From Deltaproteobacteria bacterium (GTDB taxonomy: Bacteria; Desulfobacterota; Desulfobacteria; Desulfobacterales; Desulfosarcinaceae): a stretch of 35,628 bases of DNA. The stretch is from positions 1 to 35,628 of the forward strand of contig JAHLLR010000053.1 in assembly GCA_020444075.1 (NCBI GenBank), written 5' to 3'. Under the pieces are notes generated by a model. That model was not told where the DNA came from, did no database searches, and worked only from the letters and a program-made list of their open reading frames with translations. Below, piece by piece: positions 11,551 to 26,669 of the stretch. How positions within the stretch are numbered: position 1 is the first letter of the stretch; every line of letters starts with the position of its first letter. Position numbers and translations under genes: made by a program.

Positions 11551-13041
11551 TTAGTTTTTCTTACCTTCCTCGGCCTTTTTTCTTTTTTCAGTTTTGTCGG
11601 AAGGCAATCCGGCAAGCGCCTTGGCCAGTTTGATTTTATTGCCCAGATCGCCCTCACGAAAAATCATTATTCGCTGAGCCTGAGGCGAACCTGCACCGTG
11701 CATCGATTCAACCAGGGCCGTACCACCGGTCATGGCTTCGATGAGCCGGCCGATTTTGATCCGGTCCTCAACCGGGATATCGGCTACCCCGGAAAAGTAT
11801 TTGCTCACCAGGTGCCCGACCTCATCGCTGCGTAAATCATATTCACTGGGAAGGGTAGCGAGAAATCCGCCGGCCAGGTCCACCGCCAGACGGGCGACCT
11901 CAAAATGGAAACGAGTGACGTTCTGCTTGCACACATTGGCCAGCATCGTGTTGACCAGAAAAGCCCCCGAAGCGGTGGGCGCCCCTTCTATCGAGCAGGC
12001 CAGGGAAGAGCTGTACAATGTCTCACACAAATGGATCATTTCCGTGATTTTGTCCCTGACATGCGAACCTTTTGAAGTCCCCTGTATCTGGCACAGATAA
12101 CTGACCGCCCCGGTCAATACATCCATCAGACCGGTCTTGCAGGCACCGTAGTTCGCCCGGTGATGGGCGGCAAAACGATAAACGATATCACCGGTGAATT
12201 CCACCTCTCCATCGAGAAAAACCCGATCGTTTGGAACAAATACGTCATCGAAGACAATGACCGCCTCGCCGCCGACGGCACCGAAGGAAGGTTTACCCAC
12301 ATCGATCCGCTCTAAATTATCCCTCCGGTCGTCCCCGGCCTGGCGCCCGAAAATCATCGTAATTCCGGGGGCGTCCACCGGAACGGCGCAGACAAAGGCA
12401 TAATCCTTCGATTTTTCATCCATGGCCATGGTCGGCATAATTAATATTTCGTGGGAATTCACGGCGCCGGTCATGTGAAGTTTTGCACCCCGGACAACGA
12501 CACCATCCTTCCGTCGTTCAACGATATGGACAAACTGATCCGGATCGGACTGGTCCACTGGGCTTTTTGACCGATCGCCTTTCGGATCGGTCATTGCGCC
12601 GACCACCATCAGGTTTTCATCCTGGATGCGAATCAACCATTTTTTAAATCGCTCCAGATAGTCTGTGCCGTGCTTCCGGTCGACCTCATAAGCGACGGAA
12701 TAAACCGCATTGATGCCATCAAACCCCACGCACCGCTGAAAACAGGTTCCGGTCTTCTGTCCAAGCAGTCTGAGGAGTTTAACTTTTTTGAGAAGATCCT
12801 CAACATTCTGATGAACGTGAGTGAACCGGCTGATGGTCCTGCCCGTGAGATGGGATGTAGCGGTGGCCAAATCTTTGGATTCTTCACTATTGGCCGTCGC
12901 ATAAGTCATGGCCGCGGCCCGCACATGGGGGGCGGTCGCCGGATGGTTGACGACATCCTTAATTTTCTTGCCTTTGTAGTAAATGATCGGGCTGAGTTTC
13001 TGCAGGCTTGCCATATAGTCTGCACTGCTTTTAATTTTCAT
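11551..13041 (-). CDS. 4-hydroxybutyryl-CoA dehydratase / vinylacetyl-CoA isomerase family protein (closest to canonical)
   Basis: The start at 13041 (GAGGG 8 bp upstream) gives 496 residues, close to the about 490 of the clostridial enzyme AbfD; an upstream ATG at 13092 would add 17 residues. All four ligands of the unusual [4Fe-4S] cluster are present at nearly the known positions: Cys100 and Cys104 in GTCFQRCVG, His294 and Cys301 in HHRANYGACK. The adjacent Lys302, Tyr298 and Glu445 in VESMHGAGSPQAQ match residues linked to catalysis in the characterised enzyme. The family uses FAD plus the cluster to dehydrate 4-hydroxybutyryl-CoA to crotonyl-CoA by a ketyl-radical route and is oxygen-sensitive. 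The fold is shared with 4-hydroxyphenylacetate 3-monooxygenases (HpaB), which lack the cluster. The exact substrate is not known. Confidence 0.88.
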   Translation of the reverse strand: MKIKSSADYMASLQKLSPIIYYKGKKIKDVVNHPATAPHVRAAAMTYATANSEESKDLATATSHLTGRTISRFTHVHQNVEDLLKKVKLLRLLGQKTGTCFQRCVGFDGINAVYSVAYEVDRKHGTDYLERFKKWLIRIQDENLMVVGAMTDPKGDRSKSPVDQSDPDQFVHIVERRKDGVVVRGAKLHMTGAVNSHEILIMPTMAMDEKSKDYAFVCAVPVDAPGITMIFGRQAGDDRRDNLERIDVGKPSFGAVGGEAVIVFDDVFVPNDRVFLDGEVEFTGDIVYRFAAHHRANYGACKTGLMDVLTGAVSYLCQIQGTSKGSHVRDKITEMIHLCETLYSSSLACSIEGAPTASGAFLVNTMLANVCKQNVTRFHFEVARLAVDLAGGFLATLPSEYDLRSDEVGHLVSKYFSGVADIPVEDRIKIGRLIEAMTGGTALVESMHGAGSPQAQRIMIFREGDLGNKIKLAKALAGLPSDKTEKRKKAEEGKKN

Positions 13042-13177
13042 GGTCGATTCCCTCGTTGAATTTTCATCCATTACCGGGCCGGTAATGATCACTTTGCCGC
13101 AACGCTTTCCTGGCTGTCATCGTTCCCGGTTTCATCGTCATACGGTCCGTGCTTTCACGCGGACAAGTTGCGACCGA

Positions 13178-14598: not shown

Positions 14599-15654
14599 TT
14601 AAATCCGTCCGGTCATCTTCAACAGGTCTTTGAGCAAACTGCCTGCCTTGGCACAATATTTCGGATCTTTTACCGAGTATTCGTCGACGACTTCGATGGA
14701 AAATTTCCGAAGCTGGGCGACGGTGTCTTCATTCATCTTGGAAAGCTCGCCCATTTTCTTTTCCTGGAATTGGTTGATATCCAGAATGTCATTATATCCC
14801 GACCACCGGAGAAAATCCGTTCCGCAGGAATTGGCGCACTCTTCCACGATTGCCTTGAGGTGGGGCGGCAGTTCATCCCACTTCTTCTGGTTCATGATGA
14901 TTTCGCCGTTATTGATGTTGGCCAGGTAGGGCATAACAATATATTTGGTTACTTCCTGAAATTTCATGTCCCAGGCAGTCGATACGGTTCCCCAGTGGGC
15001 CCCGTCGCAAACCCCTGTCTGAAGTGCCTGGTAAATTTCCTCTCCGGGGAAGAATACCGGTGTCGCACCGGCCTTCTGGAAGACCTGGGCGGCGATGCCC
15101 GTGCTCCGCACTTTGAATCCCTTGAAATCGTCAAGGGTGTGGATCGGTTTTCTGGAGTAAAGCGCCAGACCGGTCATAGGCAGCGGGGCCACGAACCGTA
15201 CACCGTGTTCACCATAAGCTTCCCTGAAGATTTCGATGGCGCCCATATCATAGAAATAGGCATACATTTCAGCCACGTTTTCCCAGGTGAAAAGCTGACC
15301 GTTGATGTGGCCGGCAACCGGTATCTTGCCGATCCAGTAGGCCGGCCAGATCAGGGAAATTTCAAAGAGCCCCCGGCCCAGGGCCTCGAACACGTCCTTG
15401 GTGGGTACAATGGCGCCCGGAGGCAGGGGGGTGATGTCCAGTTCGCCGCCGCTGGCATCCCTGACGCGATCGCAGAATTTCACATAGACATCCTTGTAAT
15501 ACCCAACGCCCGTGGGCCAATGGGTCTGCATGCGCCACTTGTACTTCGCCTTCGAGCTCGCTCGGGCCGCCTTCGGCATAATCGCTGCTGCACCGGCTGC
15601 CGCGGCAACCATCCCGGCTTTGATCACTTTTCGTCTGCTGATGTTCTCTGCCAT
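14599..15654 (-). CDS. TRAP transporter solute-binding protein, DctP type, with Tat signal
   Basis: The 351-residue protein starts with a twin-arginine signal (SRRKVIKAG at residues 6-14, then a small-residue hydrophobic stretch, cleavage near ARA-SS). The mature domain has DctP features: FCDRVRDASGGELDITPLPPG, then LDDFKGFKVRSTG near residue 168, where the conserved carboxylate-binding Arg sits, and GVCDGAHWG. DctP proteins bind organic acids in the periplasm for sodium-driven import by DctQM. Tat export suggests that it folds, possibly with cofactor or ligand, before transport. The matching DctQ and DctM genes are not adjacent but about 4 kb upstream in the same cluster. A strong AGGAGG precedes the start. 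Confidence 0.93.
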   Translation of the reverse strand: MAENISRRKVIKAGMVAAAAGAAAIMPKAARASSKAKYKWRMQTHWPTGVGYYKDVYVKFCDRVRDASGGELDITPLPPGAIVPTKDVFEALGRGLFEISLIWPAYWIGKIPVAGHINGQLFTWENVAEMYAYFYDMGAIEIFREAYGEHGVRFVAPLPMTGLALYSRKPIHTLDDFKGFKVRSTGIAAQVFQKAGATPVFFPGEEIYQALQTGVCDGAHWGTVSTAWDMKFQEVTKYIVMPYLANINNGEIIMNQKKWDELPPHLKAIVEECANSCGTDFLRWSGYNDILDINQFQEKKMGELSKMNEDTVAQLRKFSIEVVDEYSVKDPKYCAKAGSLLKDLLKMTGRI

Positions 15655-15784: not shown

Positions 15785-17449
15785 CTATCGGCCCCTGAGT
15801 TCCCGGCGAAGCATTTTCCCGGTGGTCGTTTTGGGCACATCCTCGATAATTTCGACGATGCGCGGATACTTGTATGCCGCCAGTCTGTCTTTACAAAACC
15901 GGATCAATTCCTCCGGTGTGGTTTTTCCCATGAACCCGTCGCTCAGCGAGACGAATGCCTTGACCGTCTCACCCCGGTAGCTGTCCGGTACACCCACCAC
16001 GGCGGCCTCCTTGACACCCGGATGCCGGTACAGGACGTCCTCCACATCCCGGGGCCAGACTTTGAACCCGGAGACATTGATCAGGTCCTTCTTGCGGTCG
16101 ACGATATAGCACCAGCCCGCCTCATCGATCTTGGCCACATCCCCGGTATGGAATCGGCCACCCCGTATGGCGGCGGCCGTCTCTTCAGGCTTCTGCCAGT
16201 ATCCACTGACAATGCTGGGCCCCCTCAATACCAGCTCACCCTCTTCGCCCGGGGGCATGAGGGTCTCCGGGTTATCCACATCCACGACCCAGGCTTCGAT
16301 CCCCGGGATGATCAATCCCACGGACAGCGCCCCGGACGCCTCATCCACAGGTCCGTTCTGTCCCAGGGGAGCGATGGTGGCCGGTGACGTGCTTTCGGTC
16401 AGCCCGTAGACATTGTGGATGGTCAGGCCCATCGCTTCCTTGAATTTCCCGACCGTGCTCGGAGAAACGGGCGCACCGCCGCTGTATGCCTTCTGAAAGT
16501 GGGCAATGTTAAATGACTGCACGTCCGGATGGTTGAGCAGCGCGATATAAACCGTTATCGACGCAACCGTGAAGGTGGCTTGGTGCTTCTCGATCAGCCG
16601 AAGAACGTCCCGCGCATCGAACCGGTTGAATAGAATTATGGGGATTCCCATGTGAAAAGCGATGGCAAGATGGGCGACGATGCCGGTAATGTGAAACATC
16701 GGGGCGATGCCCAGCACGACATCGGAGCGGTCCAGCCGCGCGGTCGACTCGTAAACCAGGCAGTTGTGATGAATGTTGGCGTGGGAGATCATGGCGCCCT
16801 TCGGCGGACCGGTGGTTCCCGATGTGTAGACCAGATACGCCAGGTCCTCGGGCGCCGGGTCGATCTCCTCGATTCGGCTGCCGGTGAACTCACGGATCAG
16901 CGTCATGAAGTCGTACGTACTCTCGAAAGTCTTCTTTTTTGCCGTTTTCAGCTGCTCTGGAAGACCGCCATCGGCATCGATCAGATCGAGCGGCGAGGTG
17001 GTGATTACGGTGCATTCGCCTGCGGCGGCACAAACGGTCTTTTCGTATAGGGAATCCTCGCAGACGACGCAGCGGGCGCCGCTGTCCGCAATCAGGTGCT
17101 TCAGGTCCCGGGTGGTGTACATGGGGTTTACCGGCACCACGATCGCCCCCCGCATCCAGACAGCGATGGCACCGATTATGGCCTGGGGAATGTTCTGGAG
17201 CACGAAGAGGATTCGATCGCCCTTCGCCACCCCTTTTTGGGACAATGCGGCAGCAAGGGACGCGGCCATTTTTTCCACCTCGGCAAAGCTGTAACGGGTG
17301 TCGAAGTAGTAGATGCATGGTGCATCCGGAACCCTATCGGCAGCATGTCTGAATTTGGCGAGCACACTTTCGGAAGGCGTTGCAAAGTCCGGGGCAAACC
17401 ACTCAGGATAGGTTTTGAGCCACGGTTTATCATCATAGTATCGGGTCAT
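15785..17449 (-). CDS. Acyl-CoA synthetase, AMP-forming (long-chain fatty acid/aryl-CoA ligase type)
   Basis: The ATG at 17449 is chosen because AAGGAGG lies 6 bp upstream, giving 554 residues; an ATG 30 bp further up would overlap the preceding gene. ANL-family motifs are complete: the P-loop YTSGTTGPPKGAMISH, NVYGLTEST, the hinge TGDVAKIDEAGWCYIVDRKKDLI and the C-terminal catalytic Lys in KTTTGKMLRREL. The enzyme activates a carboxylic acid through an acyl-adenylate and transfers it to CoA. The fold and length resemble medium/long-chain FadD-like enzymes, but chain or ring specificity is unclear. It lies 22 bp after the SDR gene and next to the TRAP binding-protein gene, which fits activation of the imported acid. 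Confidence 0.93.
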   Translation of the reverse strand: MTRYYDDKPWLKTYPEWFAPDFATPSESVLAKFRHAADRVPDAPCIYYFDTRYSFAEVEKMAASLAAALSQKGVAKGDRILFVLQNIPQAIIGAIAVWMRGAIVVPVNPMYTTRDLKHLIADSGARCVVCEDSLYEKTVCAAAGECTVITTSPLDLIDADGGLPEQLKTAKKKTFESTYDFMTLIREFTGSRIEEIDPAPEDLAYLVYTSGTTGPPKGAMISHANIHHNCLVYESTARLDRSDVVLGIAPMFHITGIVAHLAIAFHMGIPIILFNRFDARDVLRLIEKHQATFTVASITVYIALLNHPDVQSFNIAHFQKAYSGGAPVSPSTVGKFKEAMGLTIHNVYGLTESTSPATIAPLGQNGPVDEASGALSVGLIIPGIEAWVVDVDNPETLMPPGEEGELVLRGPSIVSGYWQKPEETAAAIRGGRFHTGDVAKIDEAGWCYIVDRKKDLINVSGFKVWPRDVEDVLYRHPGVKEAAVVGVPDSYRGETVKAFVSLSDGFMGKTTPEELIRFCKDRLAAYKYPRIVEIIEDVPKTTTGKMLRRELRGR

Positions 17450-17471
17450 CGGTATCCTCCTTGATCGATCT

Positions 17472-18236
17472 TCAGGCAATGGTCCACCCGCCGTCGATGG
17501 CGATGCTCTGGCCGGTGATGAAATCGGAAGCAGGGCTTGCCAGAAAGATCACGATCCCTTCAATTTCCTCGAGCTGGCCCCAACGCCCCATGGGCGTCCG
17601 CGTATTGATGAAGTCAAACCGCTCCTTGTCATTGCGGATCTGCTTGACCATCTCCGTTTCAAAATAAGTCGGCGCGATGGCATTGACCCGCACGCCCAGC
17701 TTGGCCCATTCGATGGCCATGATCTTGGTCATCTGATCGACGCCGCCCTTGGCCGAGGCATAGGCAAGCTGGTTGATGATCCCGATCCGCCCCAGAATGG
17801 AGCTCATGTTGATGACCTTGCCGTAGCCATTCGCGATCATTTGAGGAACCACCGCCTGAGCCACCAGGTAATATCCTTTCAGATTGGTGTCGATTACCCG
17901 GTCCCACTCATTTTCGGGGTACTCGAGAACCGGCACCCGGTAATTGGTCCCTGCATTGTTGAGCAGAATATCAACCCGGCCGAAGTGTTCCAGGATAGCG
18001 TCAACCCCCTGCCGTACGGTTTCAGTTGAGGTGACTTCCAGAACAAAGCCGGCCGATCGGCTGCCCGTGGCGTTGATTCTGTCCACCACGCGATCGATAT
18101 CGGTGCGGTTGCGGCCGCAGACCGCCACATCGGCACCCACCTTGGCCAGTGCCATTGCCGCCGCTTCGCCAAGACCTTTTGAGCTGCCGGTCACCATCGC
18201 CACTTTACCTTTGAGATCAAACAGTTCCAAACTCAT
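17472..18236 (-). CDS. Short-chain dehydrogenase/reductase (active, FabG-like)
   Basis: The 254-residue classical SDR has the cofactor motif TGSSKGLG (residues 16-23), NNAG at 93-96, and a full catalytic set: Ser146 in NMSS, Tyr159 and Lys163 in YASAK. The C-terminal end SDFITGQSIAIDGGWTIA is typical. Lacking an Asp after beta-strand 2 (CGRN instead), it likely prefers NADP(H), though this is only a tendency. In this setting it could oxidise or reduce a 3-hydroxyacyl-CoA made from the ligase product. It provides a useful contrast to the catalytically dead SDR domain of the TetR fusion in the same cluster. Confidence 0.92.
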   Translation of the reverse strand: MSLELFDLKGKVAMVTGSSKGLGEAAAMALAKVGADVAVCGRNRTDIDRVVDRINATGSRSAGFVLEVTSTETVRQGVDAILEHFGRVDILLNNAGTNYRVPVLEYPENEWDRVIDTNLKGYYLVAQAVVPQMIANGYGKVINMSSILGRIGIINQLAYASAKGGVDQMTKIMAIEWAKLGVRVNAIAPTYFETEMVKQIRNDKERFDFINTRTPMGRWGQLEEIEGIVIFLASPASDFITGQSIAIDGGWTIA

Positions 18237-18346: not shown

Positions 18347-18856
18347 TTATCTGGGCGGGGCAATGATAACGAGTTTTTTGGACTGGCGCAGAACACCCTT
18401 GACGACACTTCCGAGCATGGCCTCTGCAATTGCGCCTCGCCGGCGGGAACCCATTACGATCGCATCGCAATTCATCTCATCGGCCACGGAGATTATCGAC
18501 TCGATCACATTTCCGTCCACCACCTTTACTTCTCCATTCACATAGGCCTGTCCGGACTGCCTCGCTTCTTCAAATGCACATTCGCAGAACCGGGTCAGTT
18601 CCTTTTCCATAAGCGTCATTTCACGCCGTTTCCCGATAAGTTTGTTTCTGGCGCTCTCTTCCGCCTTCTTTCTTATTTTCTCAATCATTTCCTCATCTAA
18701 AAACCCCTTGGCACTCATGGGCACATCTTCCATGACGTGGAGGAATATAAGGCCGGCACAGAACCGGCCGGCAAGCATCGATGCATATTGGAATGCATGT
18801 CTTGAGTTTTCCGACAAATCGGAAGCGAATAAGATCCTGTTAATGGTAGGATTCAT
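18347..18856 (-). CDS. Universal stress protein, UspA family
   Basis: I chose the ATG at 18856 (MNPTINRILFASDLS), since GAGGAG lies 4 bp upstream and a start at 18868 would consist of that ribosome binding site. The 169-residue protein has the Usp Rossmann-like fold: a start strand RILFASDLS, and IVMGSRRRGAIAEAMLGSVV in place of the ATP-binding motif G-x2-G-x9-G-S, with the second glycine replaced by Arg. Nucleotide binding may therefore be altered. USP domains often sit beside TRAP transporter genes and in stress-linked catabolic operons. It is separated from the SDR gene by 110 bp. Confidence 0.88.
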   Translation of the reverse strand: MNPTINRILFASDLSENSRHAFQYASMLAGRFCAGLIFLHVMEDVPMSAKGFLDEEMIEKIRKKAEESARNKLIGKRREMTLMEKELTRFCECAFEEARQSGQAYVNGEVKVVDGNVIESIISVADEMNCDAIVMGSRRRGAIAEAMLGSVVKGVLRQSKKLVIIAPPR

Positions 18857-18918
18857 AAGACTCCTCATTTCTGTTTGATCAACGGATGACTGACAAGTTT
18901 ATATAAAAAACCTGATGA

Positions 18919-19473
18919 TTATGCCCGGTCTTCGCAGGGTGTTTTCAGCCCCCTGGCGGCCTCTTCAGTCAGGATGATCTCGGCGGCCCATCGGGCCGCT
19001 TTTCCGACGACCATCGGGCACTTCTCGGCGTGTCCGCCGGCTTCGATGAAACCGTTCCACTCATCAGGATGGTTCAGCCGGTAGGTCTGACCCATAACCC
19101 GTTCATGGATTTTCCCGCAGATCGAGGTGCCGTATTCCTTGACAAACCGCTCGTGCAGCCGGGCGGATAGCCGGTAACTGACAAATCGATCCCCTTCCGG
19201 ATCTTCTATATTCTGCAATTCCCGGCCGTAGAAAAGACTGATGCCCATGACCCCGCCGGTAAGTCCGCCGCAGGACCCTTCCACCGACAGCCCCACGCCG
19301 CCGGCCAATCCCGTGGCGCTCTTGAATGCCTCCGGGTGGCGGATCCGGGGAAAGGTATCCATCAACGCGGCAAGGACGCACTGGGCGCAGCCATGATAGT
19401 TTTTTTCAAACAGGGCCGCATTTGCCTCAACGGCATCAAGCAGTTCCATCTCCGAACGATATTTTGTATTCAT
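18919..19473 (-). CDS. C_GCAxxG_C_C family protein (probable redox-active protein)
   Basis: The 184-residue protein matches the C_GCAxxG_C_C family, which is found mainly in anaerobes and has conserved cysteines thought to bind metal or act in redox chemistry. Visible cysteines are Cys29 and Cys32 (HGCAQC), Cys68 in the GSCGGLTGG core, Cys119 (SICGK) and Cys152 (EKCPMVV). ATG at 19473 has GAGGAG 8 bp upstream. Its biochemical function is not established for the family. Placement between the TRAP permease genes and the USP gene suggests a supporting role, for example in electron supply to the [4Fe-4S]/FAD enzymes; that is only inference. Confidence 0.82.
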   Translation of the reverse strand: MNTKYRSEMELLDAVEANAALFEKNYHGCAQCVLAALMDTFPRIRHPEAFKSATGLAGGVGLSVEGSCGGLTGGVMGISLFYGRELQNIEDPEGDRFVSYRLSARLHERFVKEYGTSICGKIHERVMGQTYRLNHPDEWNGFIEAGGHAEKCPMVVGKAARWAAEIILTEEAARGLKTPCEDRA

Positions 19474-19545: not shown

Positions 19546-20856
19546 TTAGTTGGGGACCATAATATTGGGGAGCCAGGTGATGATCGAAGGAAATATCATC
19601 ATTACAATCAGAAAAAACGTCATGATTCCGATGAAGGGAACGACGCTCCGGAAAATGGCCCGCATTTCCGTATCCGGGCTCAGCGACTTCAGGTAGAAAA
19701 GGTTGTAGCCGAAAGGAGGCGTGATGTATCCGATGCAAAGCGCGATATTAAAAATAACCCCGTACCAGATCGGGTCGTAGCCAAGCCCCTGTACCACGGG
19801 ATAGAAGATCGGCAGGCAGAGCAGGATAATCCCCATTGGGTCCAGAAACATTCCTAATATGAGTATGGCGAACTGAAGGGTGAAGACCATGACCCAGGGA
19901 CTGACATCGAATCCCATGAGCATGCTCTGGACAAAATAAATGCCCCCGCCGCCGCTGTAGATGGCCACGAATCCGGAAGCCCCGAACATGATCCACAGCA
20001 CCATTCCCGTGATGCTGGCCGTCTGATAAGCCACATCCTTGAGAAATTTCCAGTTGCACTCGCCCCGGATCATCACACAGAGCAGGACCGCCAGGGCGCC
20101 GACCGAAGATGCCTCGGTGGGCGTAGCGATGCCGAAAAACAGCGATCCCAGAATGGAAAGAATGATCAGGACCGGAAGGGCCACCGACCGCAGCGCACGG
20201 ATTTTCCGTTTTAAGGTTACCGTCTCTTCCATGGCCGGGCAAAGCGTCGGATCCATCCAGGCCCTGATGACAATGTAGGCAATAAATCCCCCGACAATCA
20301 GAAGACCGGCGATCAGGCCGCCCGCAAAAAGTTTCCCGATGGATTGGCCTGTCATCATGCCGATAACGATCAGGGTGATGCTCGGCGGAATGAGGATTCC
20401 CATGGTACCGGCCGAACCGATAGAGCCAAATATGATGGATTCATTGTACTTACGACTTCTCATAGGAGGAATCGCCACGAGCCCCGTGGTAACCGTGGAG
20501 GCTGAGCAATTGCCCGTCATGGCGGACAGGGCCGCTGCAAAGCAGCACGTACCCACTGCCAGACCGCCCCGCAACCGGCCGGACCAGAGATAAAAAGCCT
20601 CATACATATCTTCGGCGATCTTTGATTTCGAAAGCGCAACACCGATGAAAACAAAAAGGGGAACCGCTGCCAGCAGCAGCATCCACATGTAGTTGAAAAC
20701 CCCCGTGATGATCGGCATCAGCCCCGCCGGACCCCACATCAAAAGGGCCGTTATCGTACCCACGGCACCCAGGGCAAAAGCCAGCGACACCCCGAACATG
20801 ATGCAGATGATCAGGGATCCGAACATTCCTATTGTCAGCAGCAGCTCAGTACTCAT
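19546..20856 (-). CDS. TRAP transporter large permease, DctM type
   Basis: The 436-residue integral membrane protein has a dozen or so hydrophobic segments and DctM motifs such as PLFVFIGVALSKSKIAEDMY, TGNCSASTVTTG (about residues 114-125), GSAGTMGILIPPSI and the C-terminal GLGYDPIWYGVIF with GYITPPFGYNLFYLK. It is the Na+-coupled transport subunit that works with DctQ and a periplasmic DctP. It overlaps the DctQ gene by 11 bp. The C-terminal end is followed by a 72-bp gap to the C_GCAxxG gene. Confidence 0.94.
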   Translation of the reverse strand: MSTELLLTIGMFGSLIICIMFGVSLAFALGAVGTITALLMWGPAGLMPIITGVFNYMWMLLLAAVPLFVFIGVALSKSKIAEDMYEAFYLWSGRLRGGLAVGTCCFAAALSAMTGNCSASTVTTGLVAIPPMRSRKYNESIIFGSIGSAGTMGILIPPSITLIVIGMMTGQSIGKLFAGGLIAGLLIVGGFIAYIVIRAWMDPTLCPAMEETVTLKRKIRALRSVALPVLIILSILGSLFFGIATPTEASSVGALAVLLCVMIRGECNWKFLKDVAYQTASITGMVLWIMFGASGFVAIYSGGGGIYFVQSMLMGFDVSPWVMVFTLQFAILILGMFLDPMGIILLCLPIFYPVVQGLGYDPIWYGVIFNIALCIGYITPPFGYNLFYLKSLSPDTEMRAIFRSVVPFIGIMTFFLIVMMIFPSIITWLPNIMVPN

Positions 20857-21352
20857 ATTTGACTCCCTTGATCAGCGTATAGATAGAAACGATCAGGTGG
20901 TTCAGTCCCTGAAGGGTGATCAACACCGCACCTAACACCAGCAGAAGTTTGACAGGATAGATCGGGTGGGCCAGCACCATCTCGTCGGCTTCCCGGATGG
21001 CCCAGGAGCTTGCGAAAAACGAGGACCCTTCGCGAATCAGCACGAAAGACCAGATGAGCAGCATGACATAGTTGAAGATGTCTAAGAATGCACGTTTCCG
21101 TAAAGAAAATCGTTCATAGAGAATGTCTATCCGCACATGTCCGTTTTTGAGAAGTGTATAGGCGCCGACGAGAACGAAATAGCTGCCGAAGAGCCTTTGA
21201 GAATAGCCATGGGCCCAAACCGTGGGCGAGTCGAAGAAGTACCTGGCGATCACCTCGAAAACCAGCATAAGTATGCCGGCGTAGACGAGAAATGAGCAGA
21301 TTCTGCCCGACCAGTCACTGATAGCGTCGATGGTGTGTAACAATTTTCCCAT
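20846..21352 (-). CDS. TRAP transporter small permease, DctQ type
   Basis: This is a four-helix membrane protein of 168 residues (MGKLLHTIDAISDW start) with DctQ features: FLVYAGILMLVFEVIARYFF, then VWAHGYSQRLFGSYFVLVGAYTLLKNGHVRID around residues 45-77. The start is ambiguous. An ATG at 21379 gives nine extra residues, but GGGAGGGG lies inside that extension, and a second purine-rich stretch AAGGGAAA directly precedes the ATG at 21352, which I prefer. It forms the membrane unit with DctM, whose gene overlaps its 3' end. The BUDH-like gene stops 44-71 bp before it. Confidence 0.88.
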   Translation of the reverse strand: MGKLLHTIDAISDWSGRICSFLVYAGILMLVFEVIARYFFDSPTVWAHGYSQRLFGSYFVLVGAYTLLKNGHVRIDILYERFSLRKRAFLDIFNYVMLLIWSFVLIREGSSFFASSWAIREADEMVLAHPIYPVKLLLVLGAVLITLQGLNHLIVSIYTLIKGVKYEY

Positions 21353-21423
21353 TTTCCCTTTTACCCCTCCCTGTGTCATTGAAAAGCAGGCGTCACCGCC
21401 GCCGGTCCACTGCCCCGGGCGGA

Positions 21424-22914
21424 TTAACTGTCCATACCGCCCAGTTTCGGCTCCATCTTCCGCATTGCAGCATCGTCCAGTTCGTTATCGATACCGGCAA
21501 GATAGCGGGCGAGTTGTTTCTTGTCTTTGAAATCATATCCGATGTTCAACGCAATGGTCTCCATGATCGGTGAACCGCCTCCATGTACGCCGGCGATCTT
21601 GTACCAGGCCGCCATGCTGGACACCCCTATATTTTCAACCAATTGCCATATCTTCAGCGACTCCTCCGAAGACAAGCCGGGGTTTCTGACGATGAACCGT
21701 TGCATTGCCGCGGCATGGTCCCCCTTCTCGAAATCCTCGTCAAAAGGCATGGTCACGGCGATACCGCCGGCAATTTCCGTCAGTATGTTGTACTCATGGT
21801 AAATCAATTCTCCGGTAAGCCGCCGGCCCACATTGGCGTATATGGCGTTGGGAAAGAAAACACCGCTGGCGGTCTTTTCCCCGTAGACAGCCGCCGCGAC
21901 CCCGGCTGCGAAAGCCAGTTCCGCCGCCCCGGCAAATTCGGACAGTTTTTCCTTGATGTGCGAGGCTCTGGCGACATTGTTCGCTTCCGCCGCCAATGAC
22001 GCCGTCCCGCAGAGGATGTCGGAAACCGCCGGTTTGCAGCCGCTGTAGCTGTGCCGGTGGGAGTCGGCGAACAGCATGGCCAGGCGCCGGCCGAACTGCC
22101 ACTCTCCGCACATGAAAACGCGCGCCTTGGGGACGAATACCTTGTCGAAATAAACGATGCAGTCCGACACGCCGTATTTACAGAATGGGGGGGCGTCTTT
22201 TTTATCGTTTCCCCGCAGCCATACCGGGCGGGTGATCAGACTCAACCCCTCGGCATCCCCCGGGATCGCGAAAGCCACCGCATAATCACGGTCCGATTCC
22301 ATCATTGCACGCGTGGGCAGGGCGATGATTTCATCTGCGTAGGCCGCCTGCGTGATGGACATCTTGAATCCGCTGACCACGATGCCGTCATCGCGTTCCT
22401 CCACGACGTGGAGGTAGGCATCGGGATCTTCCTGCTCGCTGGGTCGCTTCATCCGATCGCCTTTGCTGTCGGTTTGAGCGCAGCAGCCATCCAGATCCTT
22501 GTCGTGATACATGGTGAGGTAGTCGAGGAAACGCCGGTGGTAATCGGTCCCGTTGGCATCATCCATCTCGCGGGTGCATATCGCCAGGGCATTGATCGCA
22601 TCGTGGCCCATGCAGCGCTGAATGCAGCCACCGACACGGCGGGCGCCCAGGCGGATAAGCTTCTGTTTGGTAATGAGGTCGTGGGGGTTCTGCGGCAGAT
22701 GGGCCCATCGGTTGATCTCTTTGCCGGTTACCGGCGATATGGCGGTGGCCACCCCTTTCCACTCGGGGTCCTGAGCGAGGTCAAAAGTGACGTCGAGCAC
22801 ATTGATCCCCGGCCGCAGTCTGGGATCGTCCCTGCCGACGCATTCTCCGCCGATGTAGATATTCGACCTCATGGCAAACAGGTCTTCATGATATTTTTCT
22901 TTTGTTCTCAACAT
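21424..22914 (-). CDS. 4-hydroxybutyryl-CoA dehydratase family protein, divergent paralogue
   Basis: The 496-residue protein keeps the whole cluster site of the family: Cys97 and Cys101 in GGCIQRCMG, His286 and Cys293 in DSHRHSYSGCK, with Tyr290 and Lys294. So it should bind FAD and [4Fe-4S] and differs from oxygen-dependent HpaB monooxygenases. Unlike its neighbour at 11551-13041, the segment before HGGGSP reads WYKIAGV, so the position of the catalytic Glu (VESM in the neighbour) is Ala. The reaction is therefore likely altered. AAGGAGA lies 8 bp before the ATG. It directly follows the TetR-SDR fusion gene and precedes the TRAP permease genes. Confidence 0.87.
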   Translation of the reverse strand: MLRTKEKYHEDLFAMRSNIYIGGECVGRDDPRLRPGINVLDVTFDLAQDPEWKGVATAISPVTGKEINRWAHLPQNPHDLITKQKLIRLGARRVGGCIQRCMGHDAINALAICTREMDDANGTDYHRRFLDYLTMYHDKDLDGCCAQTDSKGDRMKRPSEQEDPDAYLHVVEERDDGIVVSGFKMSITQAAYADEIIALPTRAMMESDRDYAVAFAIPGDAEGLSLITRPVWLRGNDKKDAPPFCKYGVSDCIVYFDKVFVPKARVFMCGEWQFGRRLAMLFADSHRHSYSGCKPAVSDILCGTASLAAEANNVARASHIKEKLSEFAGAAELAFAAGVAAAVYGEKTASGVFFPNAIYANVGRRLTGELIYHEYNILTEIAGGIAVTMPFDEDFEKGDHAAAMQRFIVRNPGLSSEESLKIWQLVENIGVSSMAAWYKIAGVHGGGSPIMETIALNIGYDFKDKKQLARYLAGIDNELDDAAMRKMEPKLGGMDS

Positions 22915-22934: not shown

Positions 22935-24320
22935 TTATACCAGCCCGCCGGAGACATTAAGCGTCTGTCCGGTTAGGTATTTGGAAGCGTCGCGGATTAA
23001 GAAAAGCATGGCATCGGTCACATCGTAAATCTCTCCGAGACGCCCGGATGGGATTTCCATGGCCAGTTCATGTTTGAACTTTTTCTCGATTTTAAGTGGA
23101 CGCACGGCGCGTATATAACCGGGCACGATGCAATTTACGTTCACCCCGAACCCTGCCAGTTCACTTGACATGGCTCGACTCAAGGCCATGGTTCCGGCCC
23201 GGACCGTCTCAAACCGTATCGGCGCGGCATACTTGTCCCATGCCCACGGAGCTACGAATACGATCCGTCCGGACGCCCGCGCCCTCATATGTTCCGTGAA
23301 ATAATCGGACAGTTCCTGGGCGCAGCTTAAATTTTCCTCGAGTCGTCGACGCACATGGATCACGTCATCATCCGTGGGCACATCGGTCGTACCGATGCCC
23401 AGGTCGTGCAGGTAAATATCGATGGGACCCTGCCGGGCTTCGATATCTTCCAACATGGCCCGAGTTATCCGGCCGTTTTCGGCACCGTGAATGACGGTCA
23501 GGAGATCCTTTTCAGCATTCAGGGATACCGGGAAGGGGGCAGCGGTGCTTTCATCACACACATGAGCCACAACGCGGATGCCGCGGCCAAGCAGCGCAGC
23601 ACAAATCCCCTGACCGAGAACCGTTCCACCGTTTACGACCAGGGCGGTTTTTCCCTTCAGTGCGTCGGATTCCCGGGCTGCATAGGACTGTTCCCCTTCG
23701 CTGGTGAGCATTCCATGAAAAACCAGATCCAGGATCGAGCGCTCGGCTTCGAGCTGACTGGCATGCGCCCTGAGATCCCATCGTTTAATGGTCCAGGAGT
23801 CGATCATCGACTTGATCAGATTCGCCATCAGACGCACATTACACTCGCGTACCCGTCCTTGCGCGATGCACTCTTCAATGACGATTTCGAATTTTTGGAG
23901 ATGGGCGCGCTCTTTTTCCAACAGGCGTTTGAGAAAATCACCCTTGAGGATGTGGCTCTCCTGGTAAATCAGGAGAAGGGCATCCGCCCATTGATCCATC
24001 AGGTTGAACTCCCCCCGGACCATTCTTCGAAACTTATCGATGGGGTCCTGAATGTTTTCCAGGCTCCGGTTCAGGATTTCCATGGCGGACCCTGCCAGGA
24101 ATTCATGAATCAGGAAGAAGATATCCTCTTTGCTTCCCACGTAATCGTATACGTTACCGTGGCTCAGGCCGGCTTCGTCGGCCAGTTCCTTGAGTGTGGT
24201 CTTGTGAAAACCCTTTTTTGAAAAAAGCTTGATTGCCGCGAGGATGATCTGACGGCGACGCTTTTCGACGAGGTCCTTGTTCTTTACCGTGGTCGGTATA
24301 TCCATCGGAGGTTCAGTCAT
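22935..24320 (-). CDS. TetR family regulator fused to a catalytically dead SDR domain
   Basis: One uninterrupted 461-residue frame encodes two domains. Residues about 17-205 are a TetR/AcrR regulator: RRQIILAAIKLFSKKGF, then the HTH TTLKELADEAGLSHGNVYDYVGSKED (41-66) and a helical ligand domain. Residues about 222-461 are an SDR Rossmann domain starting LKGKTALVVNGG and ending TGQTLNVSGGLV. The glycine motif is kept (GGTVLGQG, 231-238), but the catalytic residues are all replaced: Ser by Ala357, Tyr by Phe370, Lys by Arg374, and NNAG reads HDLG. The fused domain may therefore sense NAD(P)(H) or a CoA-type ligand rather than catalyse. It is the first gene of the minus-strand cluster, with a palindrome over its promoter. 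An internal start near Met204 for a separate SDR product cannot be excluded. Confidence 0.88.
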   Translation of the reverse strand: MTEPPMDIPTTVKNKDLVEKRRRQIILAAIKLFSKKGFHKTTLKELADEAGLSHGNVYDYVGSKEDIFFLIHEFLAGSAMEILNRSLENIQDPIDKFRRMVRGEFNLMDQWADALLLIYQESHILKGDFLKRLLEKERAHLQKFEIVIEECIAQGRVRECNVRLMANLIKSMIDSWTIKRWDLRAHASQLEAERSILDLVFHGMLTSEGEQSYAARESDALKGKTALVVNGGTVLGQGICAALLGRGIRVVAHVCDESTAAPFPVSLNAEKDLLTVIHGAENGRITRAMLEDIEARQGPIDIYLHDLGIGTTDVPTDDDVIHVRRRLEENLSCAQELSDYFTEHMRARASGRIVFVAPWAWDKYAAPIRFETVRAGTMALSRAMSSELAGFGVNVNCIVPGYIRAVRPLKIEKKFKHELAMEIPSGRLGEIYDVTDAMLFLIRDASKYLTGQTLNVSGGLV

Positions 24321-24369
24321 GGTGTCTCCCGAAATCGTTTGCTGTGATAAATTCTGACTGGCTGTTCAG

Positions 24370-24391
24370 ATTCCGATTGATCGATCGGAAT
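24370..24391. promoter_or_regulatory. Inverted repeat, probable operator of the TetR-SDR regulator
   Basis: ATTCCGAT (24370-24377) and ATCGGAAT (24384-24391) are perfect 8-bp arms with a 6-bp centre. The site overlaps the end of the -10 box of the promoter driving the fusion gene, 50 bp upstream of its start codon. TetR proteins usually bind such palindromes and repress their own genes. No second copy was noticed in the window. Confidence 0.65.
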
Positions 24392-24418
24392 TTATTCCAA
24401 AGCCAACCCTCCTGTCAA
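24390..24418 (-). promoter_or_regulatory. Sigma-70-type promoter for the TetR-SDR fusion and downstream cluster
   Basis: Reading the minus strand, TTGACA (24418-24413) is followed after 17 bp by ATAAAT (24395-24390). Transcription would start near 24383, inside the inverted repeat at 24370-24391, and run into the fusion gene at 24320. The twelve minus-strand genes have no equally good promoter between them that I could see, so this may serve all or most of the cluster. Confidence 0.65.
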
Positions 24419-24950: not shown

Positions 24951-25220
24951 AATTCAGTGGGACGTTACGCCCCTGTTGGTGATCAGCGGCCTATACCCGC
25001 CCCCTTATCTTGGGTCTCCCGACGTTGGGGTGACGATTCCTCGATTCACATCGCCCGTAGAATTCTTTTTTAAGGCTGCCTTTCGGCAAAATCCACCGTA
25101 TTTATTCATATTTCCATACTATCCAGAAATAGTCCGACTGTTCAGGAGGAATTTCCCCCATCGCCCTTTCCGAATGAAACGGATTTCAAAAGCAGGAAGC
25201 CGATCAAGCCTTCTCGTGTG
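24951..25220. other. Intergenic stretch without a recognisable gene
   Basis: Between the NifX-like stop and the promoter of the sigma-54 activator lie about 270 bp in which I see no conserved protein, RNA gene, terminator with T-run or repeat. A short open frame on the plus strand lacks any family resemblance. A purine-rich AGGAGGAA occurs near 25145 but no credible start codon follows it. Confidence 0.5.
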
Positions 25221-25249
25221 TTGACTGCACCATTGCATTATGCAAGAAT
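25221..25249 (+). promoter_or_regulatory. Sigma-70-type promoter of the sigma-54 activator gene
   Basis: TTGACT (25221-25226) and AAGAAT (25244-25249) are separated by 17 bp. The spacer contains the inverted repeat TTGCATTATGCAA (25233-25245), so a protein bound there would block RNA polymerase. This suggests negative autoregulation of the activator. Confidence 0.55.
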
Positions 25250-25269
25250 AGGTAGTCTGCATAGATGCA
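25233..25269. promoter_or_regulatory. Paired TGCAT/ATGCA inverted repeats at the activator promoter
   Basis: TTGCATTATGCAA (25233-25245) is a palindrome around one central base. Thirteen bases later comes TGCATAGATGCA (25258-25269), a similar palindrome with a 2-bp centre. The first type recurs as TGCATTATGCA at 26673-26683 beyond the activator gene. They are the best candidates for binding sites of the Fis-type HTH of the adjacent activator. Confidence 0.6.
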
Positions 25270-25307
25270 TGTTGCACGATTTGATTCAACCCAGAAGGGT
25301 TGACCGA

Positions 25308-26669
25308 ATGGCTTGTTCAAGGAAACGAGACGATCAGGACGTTATTCTCGATTCGATCAACGAGGGTGTATTTACCATTGATCTGGATTGGCGCATCACC
25401 TCGTTTAACCGGGCCGCAGAGCGGACCACGGGTGTCAGCCGCAACAATGCCCTTCACCAAACCTGCCAAGAAGTCTTCCAGGCAAACATCTGTAAAAAAA
25501 ACTGTGCCCTGAAACAAACCTTTGAAACCGGTCAACCCGTCGTTAATGCCAATGCATTTATCATTAACCATCAAGGACAACGGGTACCTATCCGTATTTC
25601 AACGGCCATCTTAAAAAATGACGCCGGAGATATCATCGGTGGAGTGGAAACCTTTCAGGATCTCAGTCAGATCGAACAACTGCGGAAACAACTGCACAGC
25701 AGATATACGTTTGAGGATATTATCGGCCGTGGCCCGGAAATGAGGCGATTGTTCGACCTGCTTCCGTTGATATCCAAAAGCAGCAGCAACGTGCTGATTG
25801 AAGGCGCCAGCGGTACCGGGAAAGAGCTTTTTGCCCGGGCCATTCATGATTTGTCTCCCCGGAAGAATCATCGGTTCGTTCCGGTTAATTGCGCCGCACT
25901 GCCGGACACGCTGCTTGAAAGCGAATTGTTCGGCCACAAGGCCGGAGCCTTTACAGATGCCAGAAAAGACAAAGCGGGCCGCTTTTCCCTTGCCCATAAA
26001 GGCACCCTTCTCCTCGATGAAATCGGCGACATCTCACCGGCGATGCAAGTCCGTTTGCTGCGGGTGCTGGAGGACAACCTTATCGAACCGTTGGGCGGTG
26101 AACACCCCATCCCTGTCGATGTCCGCGTGTTGGCGGCGACAAACAGGAACCTTTCCGATCTGGTCCAGTGCGGAAGTTTTCGTAATGATTTGTATTATCG
26201 TATTCGGGTAATTCACCTGAAACTGCCGGCCTTGCGTGACCGCCGAGAAGATATTCCCCTGCTGGTTCAGCACCTCCTGGACAAATTCAACCGACTGCAG
26301 GGAAAGGATATCACCGGTGTTTCCGAAGAAGTGATGGCGCGGCTGATGGACCATGATTATCCAGGAAATGTCCGTGAATTGGAAAATATTATGGAGCAGG
26401 CATTTGTGCTCTGCAGGGGTATTACCATCGAGTTGCGTCATCTTCCTCCTGAATTGCGCCTCGCCACGGCGGGAGGCACCCCTTCGCTGAATCACTTGAG
26501 CCTCAAGGCGATGGAGAAATTTATGATTACGGAGGTCCTGTTGCGACATCAGGGCAATCGGAATCAAGCTGCGCAGGATCTCGGCATCAATCCCAGCACC
26601 CTCTACCGAAAGATCAAGGCCTATCGCATCCATGTCCCTGAAACGGATGGCCGCGGACGAAAAAAATAA
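25308..26669 (+). CDS. Sigma-54-dependent transcriptional activator with PAS sensor domain
   Basis: ATG at 25308 is chosen (AAGGG 8 bp upstream); in-frame earlier codons start inside the promoter. The 453-residue protein has a PAS domain (about 10-120, SINEGVFTIDLDWRITSFN) with Cys53, Cys62 and Cys66 (CQEVF, NICKKNC), an AAA+ domain (about 135-365), and a Fis-type HTH near the C-terminus (GNRNQAAQDLGINPSTLYRKI). Walker A is GASGTGKE (166-173), Walker B is GTLLLDEIGD (232-241). The sigma-54 contact loop reads GAFTDA (213-218) instead of GAFTGA. No receiver domain is present, so the signal probably enters through the PAS/Cys module, perhaps redox or a cofactor. Probable targets are the two sigma-54 promoters on either side. 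Confidence 0.93.
   Translation: MACSRKRDDQDVILDSINEGVFTIDLDWRITSFNRAAERTTGVSRNNALHQTCQEVFQANICKKNCALKQTFETGQPVVNANAFIINHQGQRVPIRISTAILKNDAGDIIGGVETFQDLSQIEQLRKQLHSRYTFEDIIGRGPEMRRLFDLLPLISKSSSNVLIEGASGTGKELFARAIHDLSPRKNHRFVPVNCAALPDTLLESELFGHKAGAFTDARKDKAGRFSLAHKGTLLLDEIGDISPAMQVRLLRVLEDNLIEPLGGEHPIPVDVRVLAATNRNLSDLVQCGSFRNDLYYRIRVIHLKLPALRDRREDIPLLVQHLLDKFNRLQGKDITGVSEEVMARLMDHDYPGNVRELENIMEQAFVLCRGITIELRHLPPELRLATAGGTPSLNHLSLKAMEKFMITEVLLRHQGNRNQAAQDLGINPSTLYRKIKAYRIHVPETDGRGRKK

Follow-up and report, generated by a model that had tools for sequence, protein, structure and literature searches.

A TetR-type regulator fused to a predicted SDR pseudoenzyme at the head of CoA-catabolic operons

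Described relatives and the fusion gene

The solved and named repressors nearest to the TetR half studied here, by sequence and by fold, include PfmR, FadR, KstR2 and AibR; AibR has been solved with isovaleryl-CoA, and some members of the group with acyl-CoA. These repressors share with our protein the kinship of the TetR half, a dyad operator before their own operon and a CoA-catabolic setting; the fusion differs from them in its added SDR half and in having two candidate dyads 19 bp apart. The AibR–isovaleryl-CoA paper and a study of QacR binding by two dimers are both named in the reference list of PMC10636190. PMC11667970 describes the Mce3R double TetR repressors as a TetR-family subfamily that is made by gene fusion and said to occur infrequently, and Mce3R resembles our protein in this origin. 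The partner in Mce3R is a second TetR unit, whereas the partner in the TetR–SDR fusion is an apparently dead enzyme, and Pfam finds only one TetR_N stretch in the fusion protein. NmrA-like SDR-derived regulators use an SDR fold for regulation instead of catalysis, as we propose for the fusion; the fusion differs in that no NmrA model appears among its Pfam matches up to 1e-3, and NmrA proteins are not known to have a TetR part. Among the matches listed in a literature search that covered subscription journals thinly, there is no TetR–SDR fusion and no studied regulator of this design for acyl-CoA pathways in sulfate reducers; the original prediction knew of no characterised regulator of the kind.

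The window is a stretch of 35,628 nucleotides (contig JAHLLR010000053.1, positions 1 to 35,628), and the fusion gene lies on its minus strand (Table 1). As predicted, TetR and SDR domains share a single open frame of 461 residues, with a complete SDR half behind the TetR half, and Pfam detects both: TetR_N at residues 25–69 (3.3e-13, 49.6 bits against a cut-off of 24), TetR_C_24 at residues 92–175 (7.8e-8, 33 bits against 26.4) and adh_short_C2 at residues 235–460 (1.1e-23). The AlphaFold2 model of the whole protein has a mean pLDDT of 81.4 and a pTM of 0.54, a value at which the placement of the two domains relative to each other is uncertain. Joining of two genes by a sequencing error is ruled out because 23 sequences from 19 genomes carry the same frame unbroken; the fusion is real.

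Table 1. Features of the fusion gene, its upstream region and its cluster in the window
Feature	Position	Strand	Basis or remark
TetR–SDR fusion gene, 461 aa	22935-24320	minus	single open frame, ATG start; full length in 19 genomes including the window's
TetR half, residues 1-205: HTH and TetR_C_24-type ligand domain	23706-24320	minus	
Linker, about residues 206-219, variable, low-confidence	23664-23705	minus	pLDDT <50 at 205-218, poorly conserved
Pseudo-SDR half, residues 220-461, FabG fold	22938-23663	minus	
VNGGTVLG, residues 229-236, in place of TGxxxGxG	23613-23636	minus	first two Gly lost
HDLG, residues 305-308, in place of NNAG	23397-23408	minus	23+12 alignment; Asp306 invariant
PWAWD, residues 358-362	23235-23249	minus	PWxWD in 23/23; Pro358 at catalytic Ser position
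FETVR, residues 370-374, in place of YxxxK	23199-23213	minus	23+12 alignment
Arg-Pro, residues 407-408	23097-23102	minus	23/23 fused, 0/12 ordinary SDRs
−35-like TTGACA	24413-24418	minus	sequence
Putative −10-like ATAAAT	24390-24395	minus	abuts dyad 1
Candidate operator dyad 1, TCCGATCGATCAATCGGA	24372-24389	minus	
Candidate operator dyad 2, TCTGAACAGCCAGTCAGA	24353-24370	minus	19 bp from dyad 1
HpaB/AbfD-type protein (4-hydroxybutyryl-CoA dehydratase / vinylacetyl-CoA isomerase relative)	21424-22914	minus	next gene
TRAP transporter DctQ	20846-21379	minus	
TRAP transporter DctM	19546-20856	minus	
Ordinary SDR of the cluster	17472-18236	minus	TGxxxGxG and S-Y-K intact
AMP-binding acyl-CoA ligase-type gene	15785-17479	minus	
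TRAP solute-binding protein DctP	14599-15654	minus	

Fused relatives occur in 13 of 389 class genomes, the window's own counted (E up to 1e-60), and all 16 places besides the window's span the protein from residue 7 or earlier to residue 459 or later. Six of 395 phylum genomes also hold one (E up to 1e-40), two of which, the window's genome (G000) and G011, belong to the class set as well; a seventh match, in G507, is an unfused TetR and was discarded. A search that included the GTDB contigs L012 and L017 gave ten loci, eight fused and two matching the SDR part only. The final set of 23 distinct fused sequences was drawn from the class genomes, the phylum genomes and these two contigs; L011, L015, L018 and L056 were left out as the same places as L039, L047, L048 and L016, together with other repeat loci, and the SDR-only matches L019 and L020 do not belong to it. 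Since at most four or five candidates were scored in most class, phylum and outside-phylum genomes, remote members may be missed. No fused relative was found in 349 genomes of L019's phylum, where the one match is a TetR alone, nor in 296 genomes of a Streptomyces phylum, where two of three matches cover the SDR only and the third is a pair of separate genes. None was found among viral contigs, and the four matches covering at least 80% among 2553 plasmid records with a match are all separate genes. In two genomes the TetR–SDR genes are tandemly duplicated (L037:7568-10834 and L039:8853-12013).

Each half of the fusion forms one clade. The support is 100/100 for the fused rows in the SDR-half tree (35 rows) and a moderate 90/89 in the TetR-half tree (44 rows), where the unfused L054 and L075 stand nearest to the fused clade on long branches. 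In 241 class genomes, with at most 11 candidates scored in each, the fused SDR signature never appeared outside a fusion: 12 SDR matches, from 3e-161 to 6e-39, are all fused, and the remaining three, at 4e-26 to 5e-23, belong to ordinary SDRs with frames of 250–286 residues. A fusion with the ordinary SDR of the window's own cluster was considered and rejected, because that protein is about 23% identical to the fused half and groups with ordinary SDRs in the tree. Separate neighbouring TetR and SDR genes are found in Bosea, Novosphingobium, Phocaeicola and Prevotella records and in G1180; in Bosea the TetR and FabG-like genes overlap, and an AMP-binding gene comes next. These pairs resemble the fusion in placing a TetR gene beside a FabG-like gene and differ in being two genes, in their low identity to it (about 22–26%) and in their intact SDR motifs, as read in G1180, Phocaeicola, Prevotella and Bosea. 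They are a plausible, if only remotely similar, kind of source for the fusion. The arrangement that would have spoken against the original prediction, two genes with an intact SDR, is thus seen only in remote neighbours and not among orthologues.

Lost motifs and conserved cleft residues in the SDR half

A structure search places this half in the SDR/Rossmann fold (best match 8x89_B, Z 25.6, rmsd 2.9 over 228 residues). It shares with FabG-type SDRs both the fold and the core residues N330, P400-G401 and T450-G451-Q452; fused members keep T450, G451, Q452, G458 and G459, and the helix residue Asn330 is kept in 21 of 23. Motifs were counted in an alignment of the 23 fused sequences with 12 ordinary SDRs, a small hand-picked set of which two members also lack the second nucleotide glycine; L008 and the matches lacking a locus were kept out of this set. 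The column of the catalytic serine, Ser in all 12 ordinary SDRs, is Pro in every fused member. The original prediction had read Ser, Tyr and Lys as Ala357, Phe370 and Arg374; the catalytic loss stands, and the serine position is corrected to Pro358. The tyrosine column holds Phe in 14 and Tyr in 9 fused members, and the lysine column holds Lys in 17, Arg in three, Leu in two and Gln in one. For NNAG, the predicted HDLG is confirmed in the window and becomes [HYQ]D[LITF]G across all 23. On these motifs every one of the 23 fused members has a pseudoenzyme as its SDR half. A bifunctional protein, whose SDR half would have some unusual activity as a reductase or another enzyme, could explain why Lys and Tyr persist in part; we regard it as extremely unlikely, given that Pro fills the serine column in all 23 and no fused member can hold Ser, Tyr and Lys together.

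The nucleotide-binding motif has also degenerated. It had been predicted to survive as GGTVLGQG at residues 231–238, a match that lies two residues out of register: the real register is VNGGTVLG, which aligns ungapped with FabG and the 12 SDRs and fits the model, with a strand to residue 229 and a helix from residue 234. At the first glycine position all 12 ordinary SDRs have Gly, and 22 of 23 fused members have Asn; the second glycine, present in 10 of the 12, is lost in all 23; the third is kept in 19. The Thr of PGxIxT, present in all 12 ordinary SDRs, remains in only 4 of 23. The fused half thus departs from FabG-type SDRs at Ser, NNAG and the first two glycines, and adds a new PWxWD and RP signature. 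These counts bear on the original proposal of NAD(P)(H) sensing by the SDR half, through which redox state would control repression. The retained Rossmann/FabG fold, the third glycine and Asn330 still accord with that idea, which is weakened by the nucleotide motif being degenerate in all 23 members, by the loss of NNAG and by the rarity of the PGxIxT threonine; we now hold it to be quite unlikely.

We defined a fused-specific invariant as one residue present in at least 21 of the 23 fused sequences and in at most 3 of the 12 ordinary SDRs. The SDR half has 17 such columns, among them N230, G232, T233, Y303, H305, D306, P358, W359, W361, D362, C397, R407 and P408. Fourteen of the 17 fall inside windows of a few residues around the canonical SDR motif positions, which cover 64 of 239 positions (P = 1e-6, with the windows drawn after seeing the alignment); by "cleft" we mean these windows. 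By comparison, 5 of the 21 conserved residues shared with ordinary SDRs lie inside them. The pattern indicates that the old NAD(P)/substrate cleft was rewritten, and then conserved, in the fused clade. The rebuilt cleft argues for a new binding site; its conservation could also serve folding only.

Selection was compared in six pairs, one of which was saturated and left out, with the window/G195 pair near saturation. In the five others dN/dS is 0.09–0.37 for the SDR half and 0.02–0.07 for the TetR half: purifying selection acts on both, less strongly on the SDR half. A decaying, functionless remnant of the gene fusion would account for this faster change, seen also in the identity to the window over 11 other fused places in the 241 genomes (37–76% for the SDR half, 55–89% for the TetR half). 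Such a remnant is very unlikely, as the half is open and full length in all 23 members, has a dN/dS below 0.4 in all five scorable pairs and carries the 17 new invariant columns.

Candidate operator and gene neighbourhood

The palindrome at 24370–24391 named in the original prediction is real, and it is one of two conserved tandem sites. TTGAC stands 27–29 bp before dyad 1 in 16 of 23 fused members. With a pattern built from the window only, 12 of 22 other fused genes reach the paired score of 18 at a spacing of 19 bp, while 100 shuffled sets averaged 0.02 and never exceeded 1. Under a looser symmetric pattern 18 of 23 fused loci show the 19-bp pair, where shuffled sets average 1.29 and reach at most 5. 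The five without it are L012, L055, L043 and, at the duplicated loci L037 and L039, the copy that lies upstream. Among unfused TetR relatives the count is 2 of 21 (shuffle mean 1.26, largest 6). In those relatives GAGCGCTCG occurs in 16 of the 21 listed sites, usually once. The tandem pattern occurs once in the window (shuffle mean 0.11). Other spacings also rise above background, 13 bp in 8 of 22 genes with the window-only pattern, and 23 and 27 bp in 10 and 6 of 23 with the looser one, which we tentatively attribute to self-similarity of the half-sites. Shuffled sets often contain single dyads that pass the loose score, about 10 in each, so the operator claim rests on pairs, and that for the unfused set on the GAGCGCTCG letters. 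The fused rows being one clade, the link between tandem operator and fusion counts as one association, not many.

The single dyad did not yield a regulon when its pattern was sought across the genome. TCYGAT-N6-ATCRGA occurs in the window's genome at 50 places with up to one mismatch and at 2 exactly, compared with about one exact place expected by chance at equal base frequencies; the control, the pattern read backwards and of different composition, gave 6. With about one exact dyad expected by chance, weight can be given only to sites that are conserved upstream of orthologous genes.

The tandem layout argues for two dimers held together. In one reading the SDR half is an oligomerisation scaffold only, which has no ligand and brings a pair of TetR dimers together on the tandem operator. 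FabG-type SDRs are commonly tetramers, the SDR core residues are kept, and the 19-bp pair goes with the fusion and not with its unfused relatives. The fused-specific residues, however, concentrate in the old cleft, and helices αE and αF, which commonly make up the tetramer interface of SDRs, are no better kept in fused than in ordinary SDRs (0.44 vs 0.51 and 0.56 vs 0.58), so that bridging of dimers draws little support from them. We consider the scaffold-only reading unlikely.

Neighbouring genes in other loci were called as longest frames and labelled by BLAST against the window proteins, and counts were made over 21 loci, with each set of tandem copies entered as one. In 12 of the 21 an AbfD/HpaB-type gene comes directly downstream, the 11 others being 70–85% identical to the window's. 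In four loci the next gene is an AMP-ligase followed by a second AbfD-type protein, and in two an enoyl-CoA hydratase with a ligase, a symporter and a thiolase further on; other genes follow in L044 and L046, and the contig ends in L012. The TetR–SDR gene thus stands directly before CoA-type genes, heading CoA-catabolic operons, in 18 of 21 loci. This position, with the conserved tandem operator after a TTGACA box, favours the predicted role as regulator of its own cluster. The window cluster contains two different AbfD-like proteins (11551-13092 and 21424-22914, both minus), for which the matches to 1u8v and 6vjr score 1.2e-94 or better. Between the transporter and the SDR/ligase genes are a C_GCAxxG_C_C redox protein (18919-19473, minus) and a universal stress protein (18347-18868, minus). 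The AMP-ligase gene at L055:3249-4913 is in two frames, through a frameshift or an assembly error. The closest unfused TetR relative (44%, L054:1491-2129) precedes TRAP transporter genes and apparent BKACE and HgdB-type CoA genes. A PAS-sigma54 activator gene belongs to the divergent unit beside the TetR–SDR gene in the window (25218-26669, plus) and at L017:2844-4619 and L058:11179-12951; it is possibly a second control of the same cluster.

The ordinary SDR of the window cluster, with relatives of 60–81% identity in seven other loci, raises the idea that the fused half docks on it as a mixed oligomer and relays enzyme occupancy to the repressor. SDRs of two unlike chains exist, as in BbsC and BbsD of 7pcs, which is among the fusion's matches; no such SDR is labelled near the gene in other loci, L014, L040 and L041 among them, and we think this arrangement very improbable indeed.

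Probable effector and proposed mechanism

Since matches to the SDR half took up the structure search run on the whole model, the TetR half was folded and searched by itself. Folded alone it reaches a pLDDT of 89.8 and matches TetR regulators (Z 17.6–21.9 over the 50 fold matches listed), headed by 3him_B (Z 21.9, rmsd 2.2 over 189 residues), which has no named ligand; the top sequence match among solved chains, 3dcf, has none either. The FadR/PfmR/KstR2/AibR group lies at Z 18.6–21.0, and DarR (c-di-AMP) and EthR follow at Z 17.6–18.9, within about 4 Z of the top. The best NCBIfam model is FadR at 61.3 bits; as its cut-off is 200 bits, the fusion is not filed as FadR itself. No solved chain matching both halves was found among the matches listed. 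The fold does not place this half clearly with the acyl-CoA type. Because acyl-CoA repressors are among the nearest solved relatives, though matches with unnamed ligands lead, a CoA thioester is the probable but not certain effector, and it may differ between branches. The CoA-type effector of the original prediction thus gains support from the acyl-CoA binders among the nearest named relatives, but the evidence sits in the TetR half, not in the SDR half to which it had been tied.

We propose, with confidence just short of even, that the fusion is an acyl-CoA-responsive repressor whose dead SDR tail adds a further module, for ligand binding and for assembly on tandem operators. The protein would be a one-component repressor of a CoA-thioester catabolic operon of which its own gene is the first. 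Its TetR half, of the FadR/PfmR/KstR2/AibR type, would bind the two dyads over the start of a sigma-70-like promoter and would be released once an acyl-CoA intermediate of the pathway fills the helical pocket; family and layout suggest both steps. The SDR half is a dead FabG-type domain with its cleft rebuilt as a new conserved site around N230-G-T233, Y303-H-D306, PWxWD (358–362) and R407-P408. It most likely provides a second, non-catalytic input, the cleft binding a pathway ligand or the surface of a partner. The SDR core, prone to form tetramers, may at the same time keep two TetR dimers next to each other on the tandem operator. A stricter, two-input form of the proposal is conceivable, and we advance it only tentatively: the TetR pocket would read one acyl-CoA, the SDR cleft would read another pathway metabolite or partner, the core would lock the dimers on the tandem operators, and the operon would open only when both inputs agree.

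A dead copy of a common enzyme whose active site was rewritten and then stayed nearly unchanged among sulfate-reducer relatives suggests a working part of a switch, here one for the breakdown of small organic acids. If the proposal is true, a pseudoenzyme of one clade, with its DNA-binding partner and a conserved operator layout, would offer a clean test of how an enzyme becomes a regulatory part, and the fusion would bring into view the control of acyl-CoA pathways of the 4-hydroxybutyryl-CoA-dehydratase-like kind in sulfate reducers.
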